Below, piece after piece: positions 10,174-25,027 of a stretch of DNA of 64,000 nucleotides (positions within the stretch are counted from its first letter, which is position 1; the number at the start of each line of letters is the position of its first letter). The position numbers were made by a program, and so were the translations under genes. Under the pieces are notes generated by a model that was not told the origin of the DNA, made no database searches, and saw nothing but the letters and a program-made list of their open reading frames with translations. This stretch comes from Streptomyces sp. NBC_00461. Lineage in GTDB: Bacteria; Actinomycetota; Actinomycetes; Streptomycetales; Streptomycetaceae. The stretch covers positions 3,133,001-3,197,000 of the forward strand of contig NZ_CP107902.1 in the NCBI RefSeq assembly GCF_036013935.1, read 5' to 3'.

Positions 10174-10481
10174 CGCCGTCCCGGCCCCTGTACGGCCCCT
10201 GAGTCTTGGCATCGACCCTCACGGCAGTCGCCCGGTCCGCGAGCGACACCCTCGATCATCAACTCAGCGGCAGGTCAGAAGGGTTGGAACTCCCCCGACC
10301 ACCGCCGGACTCCAAACCCACGAGCAGCGGATTCAGTCCGTCCAGGCAAAGTTGACGCGCCGACACCCAAAAATGAACGTTTCCGCAGGTCAAAGGCCTA
10401 CACAAGTGGGGCGGGTGGGACTCGAACCCACGGCCGACGGATTATGAGTCCTTTGAGGATCTTGGCGGTCCTTGCCGATCA
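10174..10481. repeat. att-like direct repeat, copy B (contains 3' half of the CAU tRNA)
   Basis: Near-identical to 1688-1995 (offset 8486 bp). Bases 10406-10451 are the tRNA 3' half from acceptor end to anticodon loop. With copy A it brackets the importer/hydrolase segment; with copy C at the intact tRNA it brackets the IS-rich segment. The much higher A-to-B than A-to-C similarity suggests that A and B arose by a more recent duplication or integration. Confidence 0.85.
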
Positions 10482-11553: not shown

Positions 11554-12715
11554 TCAGGCGAGCCACACCCGTTGGGGAATGCTGTGGCAGCCGTCGGTCC
11601 ACCGCTGGTGCAGGTAGGGCTTGTACTCGTCGAGGAGGGTGGCGCGGTTGGTGGCTTTGACCAGGAGTTCGTCGAGGCTGCGGGCGCGGGCGAAGCGGCG
11701 CACGGTGGAGTGGCCTAGCCGCAGTTCACTGCGGATCACGGCCAGGGTCTTGCCCTCGGCCAGCCGCTCCTGCACCGCCTCGTAGCGTTCGGTGGTGCGG
11801 GCCACCAGGCGCCGCGGGCGGCCCGCGAAGTCGAGCGTCCCGTCCGGCGGAACGAACGGGATGCTCTCCGCGGTGGACGGCTCCTCGGTGACCAGGTCCC
11901 CGGCGGCGTCCACCTTGGTGACCAGGGGGGGTCGCGAATGCGGCCCGGATGCAGCTGTGGTGGGCGCCGACCGTCCTCTCCAGGGCCTCGGCAAGGTTCC
12001 GCCACAGATGCCACCCGTCCGCGATCTGCGTCGCCTGCGGGGCGCCGGTACGGGCGCCCTTGGCGTAGGCGCCGGCCCGGTCCCGGCAGATGATCTCCAC
12101 CTCGGGGTGACCGCGCAGCCAGTCGGCCAGCGGTGCGGCGTCCCGGCCGGGCAGCACATCGAGCGGCCGGCGGGCCTCCAGGTCGATGAGGATGGTGGCG
12201 TACGAATCGCCCTTGCGTAAAGCGAAATCGTCCACGCCCAGCACTCTGACCTGGGCCGGAGGCGACTTGAGGACAGCGCGAAGGAGATGCAGGAGGGTGT
12301 CCTTCGCAACGCGGATGCTCAACGCGCCGGCAAGACGTGCCCCGGGACGGCCCGCCAGCGTCAGGGCGATCGAGGTGAGCACCGTTCGAAGCAGTGGGGT
12401 GTAGCGGGCGTGCGGGCTGGTCAGCCCTTGAATCTGCACGACGAATGTCACCGCCGGGCAACGGGAGTTGACGCACTTGAAGCGCCGCACCGAGAACTCG
12501 ATCACAACGGGGGCCGCACCGATGGGTGCGTCAACGAGGCGGCGCCGGTATCGCCCGTGCACCCGCCAGGAAGGCATCGCACAGGACGTACATCTCGCTG
12601 GGAGCGTCCGGCATGATGTACGAAACGTGACCGCCCCGGCCACCCGCTCGACGGACTCCACGACCACACCAGCTAAATGCGGCAGCAACCGCCCCAAAAC
12701 CCCTGAACCGCACAC
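11554..12715 (-). pseudogene. ISL3-family transposase, frameshifted and C-terminally truncated
   Basis: The N-terminal zinc-ribbon-like region and DDE-type domain ([20 protein letters not shown], then [15 protein letters not shown] and [16 protein letters not shown]) are read from 12715 down to about 11930. The frame then changes at a run of seven G (11925-11931) and continues as [20 protein letters not shown] through a second region with a helix-turn-helix ([20 protein letters not shown]) to 11554. The end, CHSIPQRVWLA, departs from the family after CHSIPQ, so roughly the last 100 or more residues are missing. No intact inverted repeats were found. The single-base frameshift could be a real mutation or a homopolymer sequencing error. 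Confidence 0.85.
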
Positions 12716-12782
12716 CCAGTAGATGCCCAGCTCAGCCGGACAGCATCACAAGATCGTCGACAGAGCCGAATTGCGCGACCGC

Positions 12783-13330
12783 TCACAGTTCCTGCTGCCC
12801 CGCGCCGAACAGCAGGCCGGCGATGTGCGCGTTCGCCACCTGGTCCATGTGCGCGAAGAGCCAGTCCACCTTGTCGTCCTGGTAGTGGATGAGGGTGTTG
12901 TTCTGCGCCATGTTGCCCACAGGGATCTGCCACAGGACCACCGGCTTGCCACGGACTCGGCCATCGTCTTCCAGACCCCTAGCTCGGCGGCGGCCTTCTG
13001 GTCCGTCCAGAACATGTCGCGGCTCCCGTGCGCCGGCTCGGCGTACCAGCCCGCGTCGCGGTCCGACACGTCGGCGACCAGGAAGTCGGCGTTCTGCGCC
13101 CCGAGGATCGCGTAATCCTTGGCGCACGCCTGCGTGTTGCCCTGCCAGTCCCAGCAGGTGAGGTGCATACCGACGGCCGCGTGAGGAGCGTACTTGCGGG
13201 TCATTGCGATCAGGCAGTGGGCCAGACCCGCCACACTGTTCGCCTGATTTGCGCAGTCGTTCGGGGCCGCAGCAGTCACCTGCGCCGGGACCTTGTTCAC
13301 ATTGCCCACGGTCGAGTAGCCGGGGCACAG
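12783..13330 (-). pseudogene. Broken copy of the extracellular domain of the adjacent sigma-factor fusion
   Basis: Starting with NVNKVPAQVTAAAPN near 13310 this matches residues about 548-718 of the 748-residue protein at 13477-15723: CLIAMTRKYAPHAAVGMHLT versus CLISMTRKYAPNATVGLHLT in the intact gene. The frame shifts near 12955-12965, after WKTMAE, and continues as GKPVVLWQIPVGNMAQNNTL to DKVDWLFAHMDQVANAHIAG and a stop at 12783. Divergence from the intact copy is moderate, suggesting an old tandem duplicate that lost its N-terminal part. The 146 bp between the two copies hold no recognisable gene. Confidence 0.75.
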
Positions 13331-13476
13331 CAATGTGCTCCGGCTACCCGACATCATCGACGGCAGCAGCTCGCGGACGTCACCGACGTCCCGCGGGCGG
13401 CCAGGATCACGCCGCGCAGGACCGGGCCGATCGTGCTGAACGACGTGCCGACCGCGAAGGCAGCAGCCTTCTCACG

Positions 13477-15723
13477 CTATTTGAGCGGCGTGCCACCCGA
13501 GTTTCGGTAGGCGATCGTCTTCCGGAACAGGTTGCCGCCGTCGGTTTCAATCGTGGTCGACTTGTCCGATCCTTGGCCGAACATCAGAGCCGCGACATGG
13601 GCGCTCGCGACCCGGTCCATGTGCGAGAACAGCCAGTCCACCTTGTCGTCCTTATAGTGGTACGGGGTGTTGTTCTGTCGCATGTTGCCGACCGGGATCT
13701 GCCAGACCACGATCGGTTTGCCGGACGCGTCCGCCATCGTCTTCCAATACGCGAGCTGCGCGGTCCACTTCTTTTCGCTCCAGAATGAGTTGTGTCCGCC
13801 ATTCTCCGGCAGGGCAGTGAGACCGGCGTCCGCGGCTTCAACCTCCCCGACCAGGAAGTCCGCATTTTTTGCCCCGAGGGCCACGTAATCCCTGGCGCAT
13901 TTCTTCTCGTTGCCCGGCCAGTCCCAGCAGGTGAGGTGCAGGCCGACGGTCGCGTTAGGAGCGTACTTGCGGGTCATTGAGATCAGGCAGCGGGCCAGAC
14001 CCGCCACAGTGTTCGCCTGATTTCCGCATTCGTTCGGAGCCGCCGCAGTCACCTGCGCCGGGACCTTGTTCACATCGCCCGTCCCTCGGGCGAATCCCCA
14101 AAAGTCAGCTTCGAGATCGATCATGTCGTGCGAGGTGCCGATCTTCTGGACGAAGAAACGGTAGTCGTTCAGGTACCTGGTGAGGAGGTCGACCCGGTTG
14201 ACCGCCTTCACCTCGTCCTGCCACGTCGCATTGGGGGTGAGGTGGGGGAGTTCAAACCACGACCACATCATCGTCTGCGGATGCGGTTGACCCTTATAGG
14301 TAGCCTGCGCAGCGCGGGCTTCCATATGGGGGACGAGCCCCCCGCGTCCACCCCACACGCATCCCCACCAGTTCGTCCCATTCGGGCAGGACTTCGCCGT
14401 GTACACGCTGCTCGACGGTGCAGGCGGACTGACGACGTATTGGTACTGAGCGTCGAATGGTGCGGCAACCGAAGGTTTATCGTTCGATATTCTTCCGATC
14501 ATCACCGTGTTCTTGCCCATGAAACGTATCGTCGAGCTGGCGCCACCGGCCGCAGGAGACGACGCCGACGACGCTGCTGCCTTGGCGCTCGCCGACGCCG
14601 ACGCCGACGCGCTCGCCGAGGCTGAGGCCGAACCGCTCGCCACGGCCGCCGCGACACCCGCAGCGCCCCGCGCCCCCGCCGTGGCGGAAGGGGAACCCTG
14701 TGGCTGGTGGCTGGTGGCCGCGTAGACGACGCCCGCGCCGACGGCTACGGCGGCAGCTACCGCGGCCGCGACGAGTTTCGCGGACACGTGCGCGGCCAGC
14801 CCGCCCGATCTGCTGCCGTGGCCGCCGTGGCGCAACCGCTTCGCGGCCTTGCCTTTCCCCGCGACCCCTTTCGCCGCGGCGGCCTGCGCGCTCGGCGCGG
14901 ACGGGGGCAGGGCGTGCCGCAGCCATGTGGCCGCGAGCAGTGCGGGTACCGGTACCAGGGCCGAGCCCGCCAGCAGCCGCTCGGCGGGCACCAGGTCCTG
15001 CCAGGACGCGACGCAGGCTACGCATTCGCGTACGTGCCGCGCGAACTGCTTGCGCCACGACGGGGCCGCCCACCCGTCCCACCGGGTCGCTATCTGGGAG
15101 AGCTCAGCGCACCGGGGCGCGGCGTCCAGCGCCCGCACCACCGTGCGGGCGGCGTCCAGCCTGGCCTTGAGCCGCTGCACCCGCACCGCCGCGTGTCCCG
15201 GCTCGATGCCCAGCGCCCCGGCCAGCTCCGCCCGGTCCAGCTCGCCCGCCGCCTCCAGCCACCACAGCGCCAGCAGTTCGCGGTCACCCTCCTCCAGCCA
15301 GCGCGTCGCCAGAGCCGTCTCGCGCCTCTGGCCCGACAGCTCCAGTTGAAGGATCGTCAGGTCCACGAAGTCCGCGCCGGGATCGGCCGCGTCCGGCGCG
15401 AGCTCGAAGCCCCAGCCGTGCGCCGCCGAGGGCTGCGTCTGGTGGCGCCGCCACCGGTCGCGCACCTGGCGCACCGCGATCGCCACCACCCAGGCTCGGA
15501 ACGCCGTAGGGTCGCGCAAATCCCCGATCCGGTCCACCGCGCGCATCAGCGTCTCCTGGACCACGTCGTCCACATCGACGTGTCCGTCCAGCGCCCGCCC
15601 GACGATGTTGTAGACCAGCGGCAGATACGCGGCCATCAACTCGTCCAGGGCTTGGCGGTCCCCGCCCTGCGCCGCCACCACCAAGTCCTGATCTGCACGC
15701 CCGTCCCGCTCTGCAACCCGCAT
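13477..15723 (-). CDS. ECF sigma factor fused to a transmembrane helix and an extracellular enzyme-like domain
   Basis: A 748-residue protein. The ATG at 15723 is chosen because AAGGAG lies 5 nt upstream; a GTG at 15741 is also in frame. Residues about 14-95 are sigma region 2 (YLPLVYNIVGRALDG, DDVVQETLMRAVDRIGDLRD) and about 135-195 region 4 (ELAGALGIEPGHAAVRVQRL). A HVRECVAC motif at 230-237 looks like a zinc-type anti-sigma (ZAS) domain. A basic stretch near 290-310 precedes one membrane helix at about 316-336, then an Ala/Ser-repeat linker (363-380). The remaining 350 residues should be extracellular, with WWGCVWGGRGGLVPH, DMIDLEADFWGFARG, HLTCWDWPGN and VVWQIPVGN, suggestive of a TIM-barrel glycosidase fold. 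The layout implies a one-protein signalling device, perhaps releasing the sigma part by proteolysis. No partner anti-sigma gene is adjacent. Confidence 0.8.
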   Translation of the reverse strand: MRVAERDGRADQDLVVAAQGGDRQALDELMAAYLPLVYNIVGRALDGHVDVDDVVQETLMRAVDRIGDLRDPTAFRAWVVAIAVRQVRDRWRRHQTQPSAAHGWGFELAPDAADPGADFVDLTILQLELSGQRRETALATRWLEEGDRELLALWWLEAAGELDRAELAGALGIEPGHAAVRVQRLKARLDAARTVVRALDAAPRCAELSQIATRWDGWAAPSWRKQFARHVRECVACVASWQDLVPAERLLAGSALVPVPALLAATWLRHALPPSAPSAQAAAAKGVAGKGKAAKRLRHGGHGSRSGGLAAHVSAKLVAAAVAAAVAVGAGVVYAATSHQPQGSPSATAGARGAAGVAAAVASGSASASASASASASASAKAAASSASSPAAGGASSTIRFMGKNTVMIGRISNDKPSVAAPFDAQYQYVVSPPAPSSSVYTAKSCPNGTNWWGCVWGGRGGLVPHMEARAAQATYKGQPHPQTMMWSWFELPHLTPNATWQDEVKAVNRVDLLTRYLNDYRFFVQKIGTSHDMIDLEADFWGFARGTGDVNKVPAQVTAAAPNECGNQANTVAGLARCLISMTRKYAPNATVGLHLTCWDWPGNEKKCARDYVALGAKNADFLVGEVEAADAGLTALPENGGHNSFWSEKKWTAQLAYWKTMADASGKPIVVWQIPVGNMRQNNTPYHYKDDKVDWLFSHMDRVASAHVAALMFGQGSDKSTTIETDGGNLFRKTIAYRNSGGTPLK

Positions 15724-16290
15724 CCGCACTCCTTCGCTCACCGGCCGGGCGCCCGCGCGCGCCCGGTCCGCCTCGATGTATAGGTGACGGCTGCGCGGCG
15801 GCCGGGTAACACTTCCGGCCGCATTGTTTTGCCGGACCGCGCACTACCCGCGGGCGGCGGCGACCCAACACCAAGCAAACCAACCAGTAGACGAAACACC
15901 ATGCGTCAGCTAGCTGCCCGGCAGAACCACCGAATGGAGAAACGCACAGGTCATCGATCAGCAGCGCGGTTCACCACAACGCTCTCAGTCTTTCCGATCC
16001 TTGTGTCCAACCTGCGTCCAGAACGCGTCCTGGAGGACAGCCCAACCGGATTCCGAGACGATCGCCCCAGCTCAGAAGTGCGCCTCGAACTCGCCCGCAG
16101 CGGATTCCCCTTCCAACGCACAGAGACTCCACCCCAGGGCGCCAGGGCGGAGCCTCTGGGAGCACTTTCACCGAGCAACGCGTATACACAGAGCCCGAGC
16201 TACAGGACCGGAATCAGTCCGCGTCCAGCTCGGCCGCTTCGACGGGGTGCCGCTGCAGCCAAGCGTATGCGTTTCGCCTGTTGCTACCAA
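15724..16290. other. Gene-free stretch with degenerate repeat module
   Basis: It holds the upstream region of the sigma-fusion gene (about 15724-15900). At about 16062-16180 there is a module resembling 10615-10740 (GAGACGATCGCCCCAGCTCA, then CGCAGCGGATTCCCCTTCC). The plus-strand frame open from 15784 has no ribosome-binding site or coding signature except for the IS1380 piece at its end, so I do not call a gene. Confidence 0.45.
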
Positions 16291-23372: not shown

Positions 23373-24044
23373 ATGAGTGACACTCCGGAGCCGTCCGGCC
23401 ACCCCGAACTCCTCGTTGCCGAACCGCTTGTCTGCACCGAGATCAAGATCGGGTACGCGCGGGTGTCCAGCGGCGGACAGAAGCTCGACCGGCAGATCGA
23501 CGCCCTCACCACCGCCGGATGCCGGAAGATCTTCTCGGACAAGAAGTCCGGAAAGAACGCCCTCCGCCCGGAATTGAAGGCGTGCCACGCCTTTCTCGAC
23601 GCTGGCGACACCCTCGTCGTCCCGTCGCTCGACCGCTACGGCCGCAGCCTCCAGGACCTCATCAACATGGTCGCCGAACTCCGGACGCGCGGGATCGGCT
23701 TCACCTCGCTGCACGAGAACCTCGACACCACCACCCCCGGCGGCCGACTCGTCTTCCACGTCTTCGCCGCTCTGGCGGAGTTCATCCGCGAACTCATCGT
23801 CCAGGGCACTCGCGAGGGCCTGGCCGCTGCCCGCGCCCGCGGCCGGGTCGGAGGGCGCCCCACCGTCGCTACCGAGGAAGTCATCCGCGCCGCCCGCGAC
23901 CTGCTGCCCGACCCCGGCCGCTCCATCACCTCGATCGCCAAAATGCTGGGCATCTCCCCGGGCACCCTCTACAACCACATCCCCGACCTCCAAGACCTGC
24001 GCGCCTCCGCCGTCCCCCACCAGCTCGACGCTGCGGAACGGTGA
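23373..24044 (+). CDS. Serine recombinase, resolvase/invertase family
   Basis: A 223-residue small serine recombinase. The catalytic Ser is in GYARVSSGGQ (about residue 32) and the conserved Arg cluster is in SLDRYGRSLQDL (about 85-96). The long E-helix region ALAEFIRELIVQGTREGLAA leads to an RGRVGGRP hinge at about 155, and the C-terminal helix-turn-helix is ITSIAKMLGISPGTLYNHI (about 190-208). It has about 24 extra N-terminal residues before the usual IGYARVS start, and an in-frame later start is possible. An AT-rich array of inverted half-sites lies directly upstream. It could resolve a lost Tn3-like transposon; no TnpA is visible. Confidence 0.88.
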   Translation: MSDTPEPSGHPELLVAEPLVCTEIKIGYARVSSGGQKLDRQIDALTTAGCRKIFSDKKSGKNALRPELKACHAFLDAGDTLVVPSLDRYGRSLQDLINMVAELRTRGIGFTSLHENLDTTTPGGRLVFHVFAALAEFIRELIVQGTREGLAAARARGRVGGRPTVATEEVIRAARDLLPDPGRSITSIAKMLGISPGTLYNHIPDLQDLRASAVPHQLDAAER

Positions 24045-24860: not shown

Positions 24861-24998
24861 AAACTCACGAGCAGCGGATTCAGTCCGTTCAGGGAAAGTT
24901 GACACCCCGACAGGACAAAATGAACGTTTCCGCAGGTCAGAAACCTGCGCAGGTGGGGCGGGTGGGACTCGAACCCACGGCCGACGGATTATGAGTCC
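24861..24998. repeat. att-like direct repeat, copy C (overlaps the intact CAU tRNA)
   Basis: Aligns without gaps to 1828-1965 (offset 23033); I count about 15 mismatches in 138 bp, all outside the last 46 bp, which are identical. Those 46 bp are the 3' half of the tRNA at 24954-25027. The left 90 bp hold ACGTTTCCGCAGGTCAGA at 24924-24941 and a 12-bp palindrome ACCTGCGCAGGT at 24943-24954. The intact tRNA on this side and the bare 3' halves at the other copies fit attR/attL of tRNA-integrating elements. Confidence 0.85.
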
Positions 24999-25027
24999 GC
25001 TGCTCTAACCGGCTGAGCTACCGCCCC
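24954..25027 (-). tRNA. tRNA with anticodon CAU (Met or Ile2)
   Basis: On the minus strand the 74-nt sequence folds as acceptor GGGGCGG/CCGCCCC, D-arm GCTC/GAGC, anticodon stem GCGGA/TCCGT with loop CTCATAA, and T-arm GTGGG-TTCGAGT-CCCAC. No complete CCA is encoded (ACCT follows). CAU may be elongator tRNA-Met or the tRNA-Ile2 in which C34 is modified to lysidine; I cannot separate them by eye. Its 3' half is the repeated core of the three att-like copies. Confidence 0.92.

Follow-up and report, generated by a model that had tools for sequence, protein, structure and literature searches.

Organisation of the fused gene

The window analysed here is a stretch of 64,000 nucleotides from Streptomyces sp. 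NBC_00461 (contig NZ_CP107902.1, positions 3,133,001 to 3,197,000), and its subject is one minus-strand gene that joins an extracytoplasmic function (ECF) sigma factor, a zinc anti-sigma (ZAS) motif, a membrane helix and an apparently extracellular TIM barrel in a single open reading frame (ORF). Its parts were placed by Pfam and NCBIfam searches, hydropathy and AlphaFold2 (AF2) models, and residues are numbered from the GTG, not from the likelier ATG start at 15723, which is the coordinate given in the initial annotation.

13477..15741, minus: whole fused gene, an open frame of 754 amino acids counted from GTG
15721..15723, minus: likelier ATG start, with GAAGGAG just upstream, giving 748 amino acids
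15439..15639, minus: sigma region 2, residues 35-101 (Pfam PF04542)
15121..15381, minus: sigma region 4 and following helices, residues 121-207 (TIGR02937 span, AF2 helices)
15013..15036, minus: HVRECVAC, the Hx3Cx2C anti-sigma motif, residues 236-243 (sequence)
14713..14784, minus: membrane helix, residues 320-343 (hydropathy; AF2, with low confidence there)
14527..14706, minus: Ala/Ser-rich linker, residues 346-405 (sequence)
13480..14523, minus: outer TIM-barrel domain, residues 407-754 (predicted structure, sequence)

Sigma70_r2 is matched at residues 35-101 (E 5.3e-14) and TIGR02937, sigma70-ECF, spans residues 31-195 (E 8e-17), while region 4 gave no Pfam match of its own in the fused protein; the predicted sigma fold resembles CnrH (4cxf) and SigW (5wuq). 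Regions 2 and 4 thus lie within one short sigma domain, as in ECF sigma factors. HVRECVAC follows this domain with the Hx3Cx2C spacing of a ZAS, its zinc site being putative, and the zinc-finger models of Pfam gave no match to the fused protein. The hydropathy maximum, 2.27 at residues 323-341, coincides with the AF2 helix at 320-343, the single long helix in a model of residues 1-350 that has low confidence in that part. The initial annotation had described a sensor, one membrane helix and a sigma factor in a single chain, and this arrangement is borne out by the family searches, by hydropathy, by AF2 and by the same fusion in Streptomyces sp. MNU76; HVRECVAC, the Ala/Ser linker and the motifs DLEADFWG, CWDW and VVWQIPVGN are present as it claimed, the last three all within residues 407-754. 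As MNU76 (locus L034) is an independent genome, the fusion is real and no accident of assembly. Between the two proteins the sigma part is 99% and the barrel 95% identical.

The outer barrel is usually a separate exported protein

The outer domain of about 350 residues is modelled as a glycosidase-type TIM barrel, the fold that had been read from its motifs. It has no match in Pfam or NCBIfam and no convincing sequence match in PDB, and none of 30 barrel rows matches the glycosidase families of Pfam at E 0.1. In clan GH-A, TIM barrels have their catalytic Glu residues where strands 4 and 7 end; the window barrel has a Glu at strand 4 and a strand-7 motif, VVWQIP, without one, and the catalytic pair is not evident in it. 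Six cysteines are conserved in the barrel.

A search for homologues with the same domain order, as the initial annotation had advised, found the sigma fusion again in MNU76. The barrel is a separate exported protein in 72 of 74 rows and is fused to a sigma factor only in the window and MNU76. This set excludes L001, L003, L004, most of L006-L033 and partial loci; L027 and L032, which it keeps, reach the locus edge, and L027 is complete as L061. In a wider set with redundant loci, 2 of 100 barrel ORFs have the sigma part, L003 and L004, which hold the window gene in truncated form, being scored as sigma-less because the locus ends. The free exported RICIN-barrel and CBM-barrel proteins of actinobacteria share a homologous barrel with the window's outer domain but, unlike the window protein, lack the sigma part. 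Barrel identity is 55-95% among close kin and 23-26% in the CBM_4_9 group, where three distant exported barrels (L214, L215 and L216) have a CBM_4_9 module at the N-terminus, which indicates that unclassified glycosidase-like proteins form a broader family.

A stable chassis with exchangeable outer modules

The sigma-ZAS part is matched in 287 of 391 genomes of the order at E 1e-30. We refer to the sigma-ZAS-membrane part as the chassis and compared 112 chassis ORFs (L070, L100 and L104-L213), comprising the best matches by E-value and two neighbours of free barrel genes, a choice that biases the module frequencies given here. Hx3Cx2C is present in all 112. An outer module is present in 110, of seven kinds by clustering and Pfam: CAP (82), AbfB (10), unknown (9), propeller-like (4), lysozyme-like (2), Glyco_hydro_cc (2) and this barrel (1). 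The two ORFs without an assigned module are cut by a contig end (L171) or frameshifted after the sigma part (L206). On the sigma tree the modules group by clade, with 8 changes against a minimum of 6 and a shuffled mean of 30.2, and hence the chassis is stable and its outer modules have been replaced a few times. The window and MNU76 sigmas lie nearest to those with the propeller-like module, with weak support (80). The window genome has two further chassis genes, L220 (unknown module) and L221 (AbfB-like module).

The initial annotation had named, as evidence against its reading, homologues whose sigma and outer parts are always separate genes. This holds for the barrel in 72 of 74 rows but not for the sigma part, which has an outer module of some kind attached in 110 of 112 ORFs, and separate barrel genes therefore do not refute a sensor.

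Inspection of the lesser-known modules was by eye. The unknown module, of about 200 residues with YGxxVDxxDSxPP ... PVPQYLTR, is carried by L109, L112, L115, L123, L135, L159, L160, L175, L213 and L220, and gave no Pfam match in L109, its sole member searched alone. The propeller-like module is large, is carried by L105, L106, L107 and L134, and gave no significant Pfam match in L105 and L106, the two searched alone. Lysozyme-like modules are found on L070:3322-5229 (Hamadaea) and L100:7396-9147 (Catelliglobosispora), and each of these chassis sigmas is adjacent to a free barrel gene that a matching promoter variant precedes.

A shared promoter-like motif and its predicted regulon

Upstream regions of chassis genes have TGTTATC-N15-17-GTCTCC in common, scoring at least 11 of 13 in 91 of 112 chassis genes compared with 1 of 1008 shuffles. 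By module it precedes CAP in 78 of 82, propeller-like in 4 of 4, unknown in 4 of 9, Glyco_hydro_cc in 2 of 2, the window gene in 1 of 1, AbfB in 0 of 10 and lysozyme-like in 0 of 2, and it is also present ahead of the cut and frameshifted ORFs. The window copy, kept in MNU76 as well, is as follows.

15783..15811, minus: promoter-like motif TGTTACC-N16-GTCACC, 41 bases ahead of GTG

It scores 11 of 13 on the strict consensus, a score that 6 of 2000 shuffled versions of its upstream region attain. For genome searches the motif, derived from chassis upstream regions, was opened at its Y and W positions so as to include the window (TGTTAYC-N15-17-GTCWCC). In the 10.4-Mb window genome five sites match the opened pattern exactly and none matches the reversed control, and the five precede the fused gene, an unknown-module chassis sigma, two Alginate_lyase proteins (PF05426, E 5.1e-11 and 1.3e-13, with twin-arginine-like leaders) and an exported-looking repeat protein. 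Across 41 genomes of the genus there are 51 exact matches, these five included, against 4 for the control, with 3 more in MNU76. Among the 37 of these 54 matches that were read, 20 lie ahead of chassis sigmas, 7 ahead of alginate-lyase-like proteins and 4 ahead of the repeat protein; the other 6 were assigned by eye to two free CAP proteins and one each of a chitinase-like, a lipoprotein-like and an S-adenosylhomocysteine-hydrolase-like protein and a probable antisense frame. Given this placement of the motif across chassis genes and genomes, there is good support for autoregulation, and for a small regulon made up of exported proteins, as a trait of the family.

Some sensor modules resemble products of this predicted regulon. 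L279 and L302 are, by eye, free membrane-anchored CAP-like proteins behind the same motif as the CAP-type chassis sigmas. A free barrel gene and a ricin gene of Catelliglobosispora flank a chassis sigma, and both are preceded by the same -35 with an ATCTCC -10, which for the barrel lies 78 to 280 bases upstream of the start, depending on the start chosen. In Hamadaea TGCCAT-N17-ATCTCC precedes the chassis sigma and a divergent barrel gene (the barrel copy by eye).

Origin of the fusion and its probable transfer on a tRNA-Met island

The barrel half has a GC content of 0.611 and a third-position GC content (GC3) of 0.79, the sigma half 0.728 and 0.895. The closest non-fused barrel is from Promicromonospora, at about 94% nucleotide identity across 1107 bases, a match that starts at the barrel and extends 58 bases beyond the stop. 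The gene most likely originated by the joining of a barrel to a widespread chassis whose outer modules vary between species. The barrel gene of Promicromonospora soli (L035:5689-7053) has a GC3 of 0.78 in surroundings mostly of 0.9 or more and is itself likely a distant transfer. Directly downstream of the fused gene, in both the window and MNU76, lies a truncated second barrel copy.

Of about 252 synonymous sites in the sigma and ZAS parts, 2 distinguish the window copy from that of MNU76, compared with 14 out of about 243 in the barrel (Fisher p 0.0017), which suggests that the barrel recombined after the two copies parted, or differs in rate; the ratio of non-synonymous to synonymous substitution rates (dN/dS) in the barrel is 0.35.

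12746..13357, minus: second barrel copy, 5'-truncated and frameshifted (sequence)
12748..16135, strand not given: block 97.6% identical to MNU76, 3411 bases (nucleotide comparison)
24952..25027, minus: tRNA-Met(CAT), one island end
10312..10451, strand not given: far repeat with the 46-base 3' end of tRNA-Met(CAT), other island end

In both genomes the shared block has tRNA-Met(CAT) to one side and a further copy of the 3' end of that tRNA to the other, in MNU76 at L264:465-540 and L265:4977-5109 respectively. As the block is 97.6% identical beside a chromosome that, beyond the tRNA cluster, is collinear over about 16 kb at only 77-90% identity, recent transfer is likely, and the fused gene probably moved between species on this tRNA-Met island. 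At the far repeat 822 bases are 96.5% identical between the two genomes and the repeat itself 82%; the inside part is, by subtraction, about 99% identical, as expected if it arrived with the island. No other match of more than 150 bases was found between the window and MNU76 islands, an arrangement of related integrative islands carrying different cargo. The repeats at 1826-1965 and 10312-10451 are identical over 140 bases and their 46-base core recurs in the tRNA at 24953-24998, so two islands may follow one another, the first at about 2.0-10.3 kb, where ABC transporter genes lie, and the second at 10.5-24.9 kb. No integrase was identified; by eye, a serine-recombinase-like ORF lies at 23373-24044, and minus-strand frames at 11554-12715 that resemble a broken transposase adjoin the shared 3.4-kb block at its left edge.

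Discussion

We propose a model, built on the domain order, barrel fold, conserved motif and shared island established here by sequence or computation, in which the protein is a self-regulated transmembrane sigma receptor in one polypeptide. Inside the cell the ECF sigma factor would be kept inactive in cis by its own C-terminal ZAS. The single helix is predicted to cross the membrane and to place the barrel outside, where, as kin of exported proteins that resemble glycan enzymes, it may sense a wall ligand or, more probably, a polysaccharide. Signal-dependent cleavage at or near the membrane, after the example of IutY and the predictions for ECF48, ECF52 and ECF53, would then free the sigma part, which may act at TGTTAYC-N15-17-GTCWCC promoters to transcribe both the fused gene itself and a small regulon of genes for exported proteins. 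Taken jointly, with sensing, proteolysis, promoter use, module exchange and island included, we regard this model as probable.

Several observations weigh against it. The AF2 model of the chassis is poor (pLDDT 59.5, built from 5 sequences). The clade of the window barrel deviates at 27 of 131 columns that are invariant in the other 70 homologues, some of them following strand 6 (D236, D239, R240, W244 and Y245 in barrel numbering), and barrel function in this clade may have shifted; as the free clade members L005 and L035 deviate too, at 25 invariant columns each, the change predates the fusion or is unrelated to it. Both genomes with the fusion also encode a further chassis sigma preceded by this motif, and the regulon may therefore belong to that paralogue, while we infer that the window sigma drives the motif-bearing genes. 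Because the motif was built from regions upstream of chassis sigmas, matches ahead of sigma genes are in part to be expected, and motif scoring of upstream regions found none ahead of Streptomyces ricin-barrel genes.

The same receptor could be activated by a conformational change in the ZAS or by cytoplasmic redox chemistry at its zinc cysteines, without membrane cleavage. The invariance of Hx3Cx2C among chassis ORFs suits this, and some zinc anti-sigma factors are redox-responsive (PMC4960319), but a single helix with an outer domain and, by analogy, the proteolysis of IutY (PMC8999054) would favour cleavage, and we hold this route to be rather unlikely. Less credible still is a membrane-anchored ectoenzyme, an active surface barrel without gating, beside a sigma factor that is constitutive or follows another cue: the free homologues resemble exported enzymes and the majority of invariant barrel residues is retained, yet the strand-7 Glu expected for clan GH-A is not evident, and chassis ORFs keep some outer module while its kind changes, a pattern that fits a slot for sensors. 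A decaying fusion with a sigma part that has lost its function would account for the broken barrel copy beside the gene and for its occurrence in two genomes only, but is very improbable in view of 72 of 76 near-invariant sigma/ZAS positions retained, 200 sigma codons that show just 1 non-synonymous change and 2 synonymous ones between the copies, and a promoter motif intact in both genomes. Finally, the weaker hydrophobic stretch at 252-275, with hydropathy as high as 1.8 at 256-274, could span the membrane ahead of 320-343, reverse the topology and leave the barrel in the cytoplasm, but it contains prolines, AF2 gives no confident helix there, CAP, AbfB and the barrel are exported-type domains and the barrel has six conserved cysteines, so that we give this arrangement hardly any credence.

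The receptor model allows a further, tentative step, which we would not yet back over its alternatives: that this is a mobile, single-gene, self-regulating sigma switch that plugs a foreign glycan-sensing barrel into a regulon already present in the host, namely the exported alginate-lyase-like proteins and the exported repeat protein, and that sensors in this family have repeatedly been drawn from the proteins the sigma factors control. The latter is suggested since free CAP proteins and CAP-type sigmas have the same motif and since in two Micromonosporaceae the free barrel gene, behind a matching promoter variant, adjoins a chassis sigma. If true, a complete signal receptor moves between species as one gene and uses the existing regulon of its recipient, and the exchange of outer modules explains how one-piece sigma receptors gain new inputs. 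This large and little studied group would also gain a testable promoter and a short list of target genes, and its chassis would be ready for engineered extracellular sensing in laboratory streptomycetes.

Comparison with known systems

ECF48, ECF52 and ECF53 are described as having a C-terminally fused ZAS, one or two membrane helices and an extension (PMC8999054), with predicted glycosyl hydrolase and carbohydrate-binding domains in some ECF52 and ECF53 members (PMC10766802), and the window protein has this layout. The kinship to ECF52/53 named in the initial annotation thus stands for layout and fails for ECF52. SCO4117 of Streptomyces coelicolor, the characterised ECF52, has, like the window protein, sigma factor, zinc finger, membrane helix, low-complexity linker and carbohydrate-related outer domain in one chain (PMC5826349), but ECF52 proteins have an NPCBM-type carbohydrate-binding module and a proline-rich linker where the window protein has a barrel and an Ala/Ser linker. 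A Pfam search found no NPCBM in the window protein, and 7 of 30 NPCBM loci give sigma-like alignments to the window sigma, at 21-25% identity and E 0.007 or worse. Three of these seven, occurring in the window genome and its kin, were confirmed as sigma plus NPCBM, and pairwise comparison of the window sigma with one of these three gave no significant match. ECF52 membership was rejected on the lack of NPCBM and the identity of about 21-25% to NPCBM-bearing sigmas.

ECF48 and ECF53 resemble the window protein by description only, its barrel being in no Pfam family. In Clostridium thermocellum the anti-sigma factor RsgI and SigI are reportedly separate proteins, in contrast to the one ECF polypeptide of the window. 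There, outer substrate-sensing parts control the sigma factor and RseP cuts in the membrane (PMC12203970). IutY of Pseudomonas putida (ECF243) has the same C-terminal fusion of anti-sigma to sigma and is activated via intramembrane proteolysis (PMC8999054), but serves iron-starvation surface signalling for a siderophore and has no barrel module. The excerpt of PMC11256431 holds nothing on the window chassis family, and the open-access literature searched reports neither the barrel module nor the CAP-type chassis sigmas, the promoter or the island. Sigma factors fused to a zinc finger, membrane helix and extension are therefore already known, and what is new here, within the literature searched, is the barrel module, its mobility and the predicted regulon.
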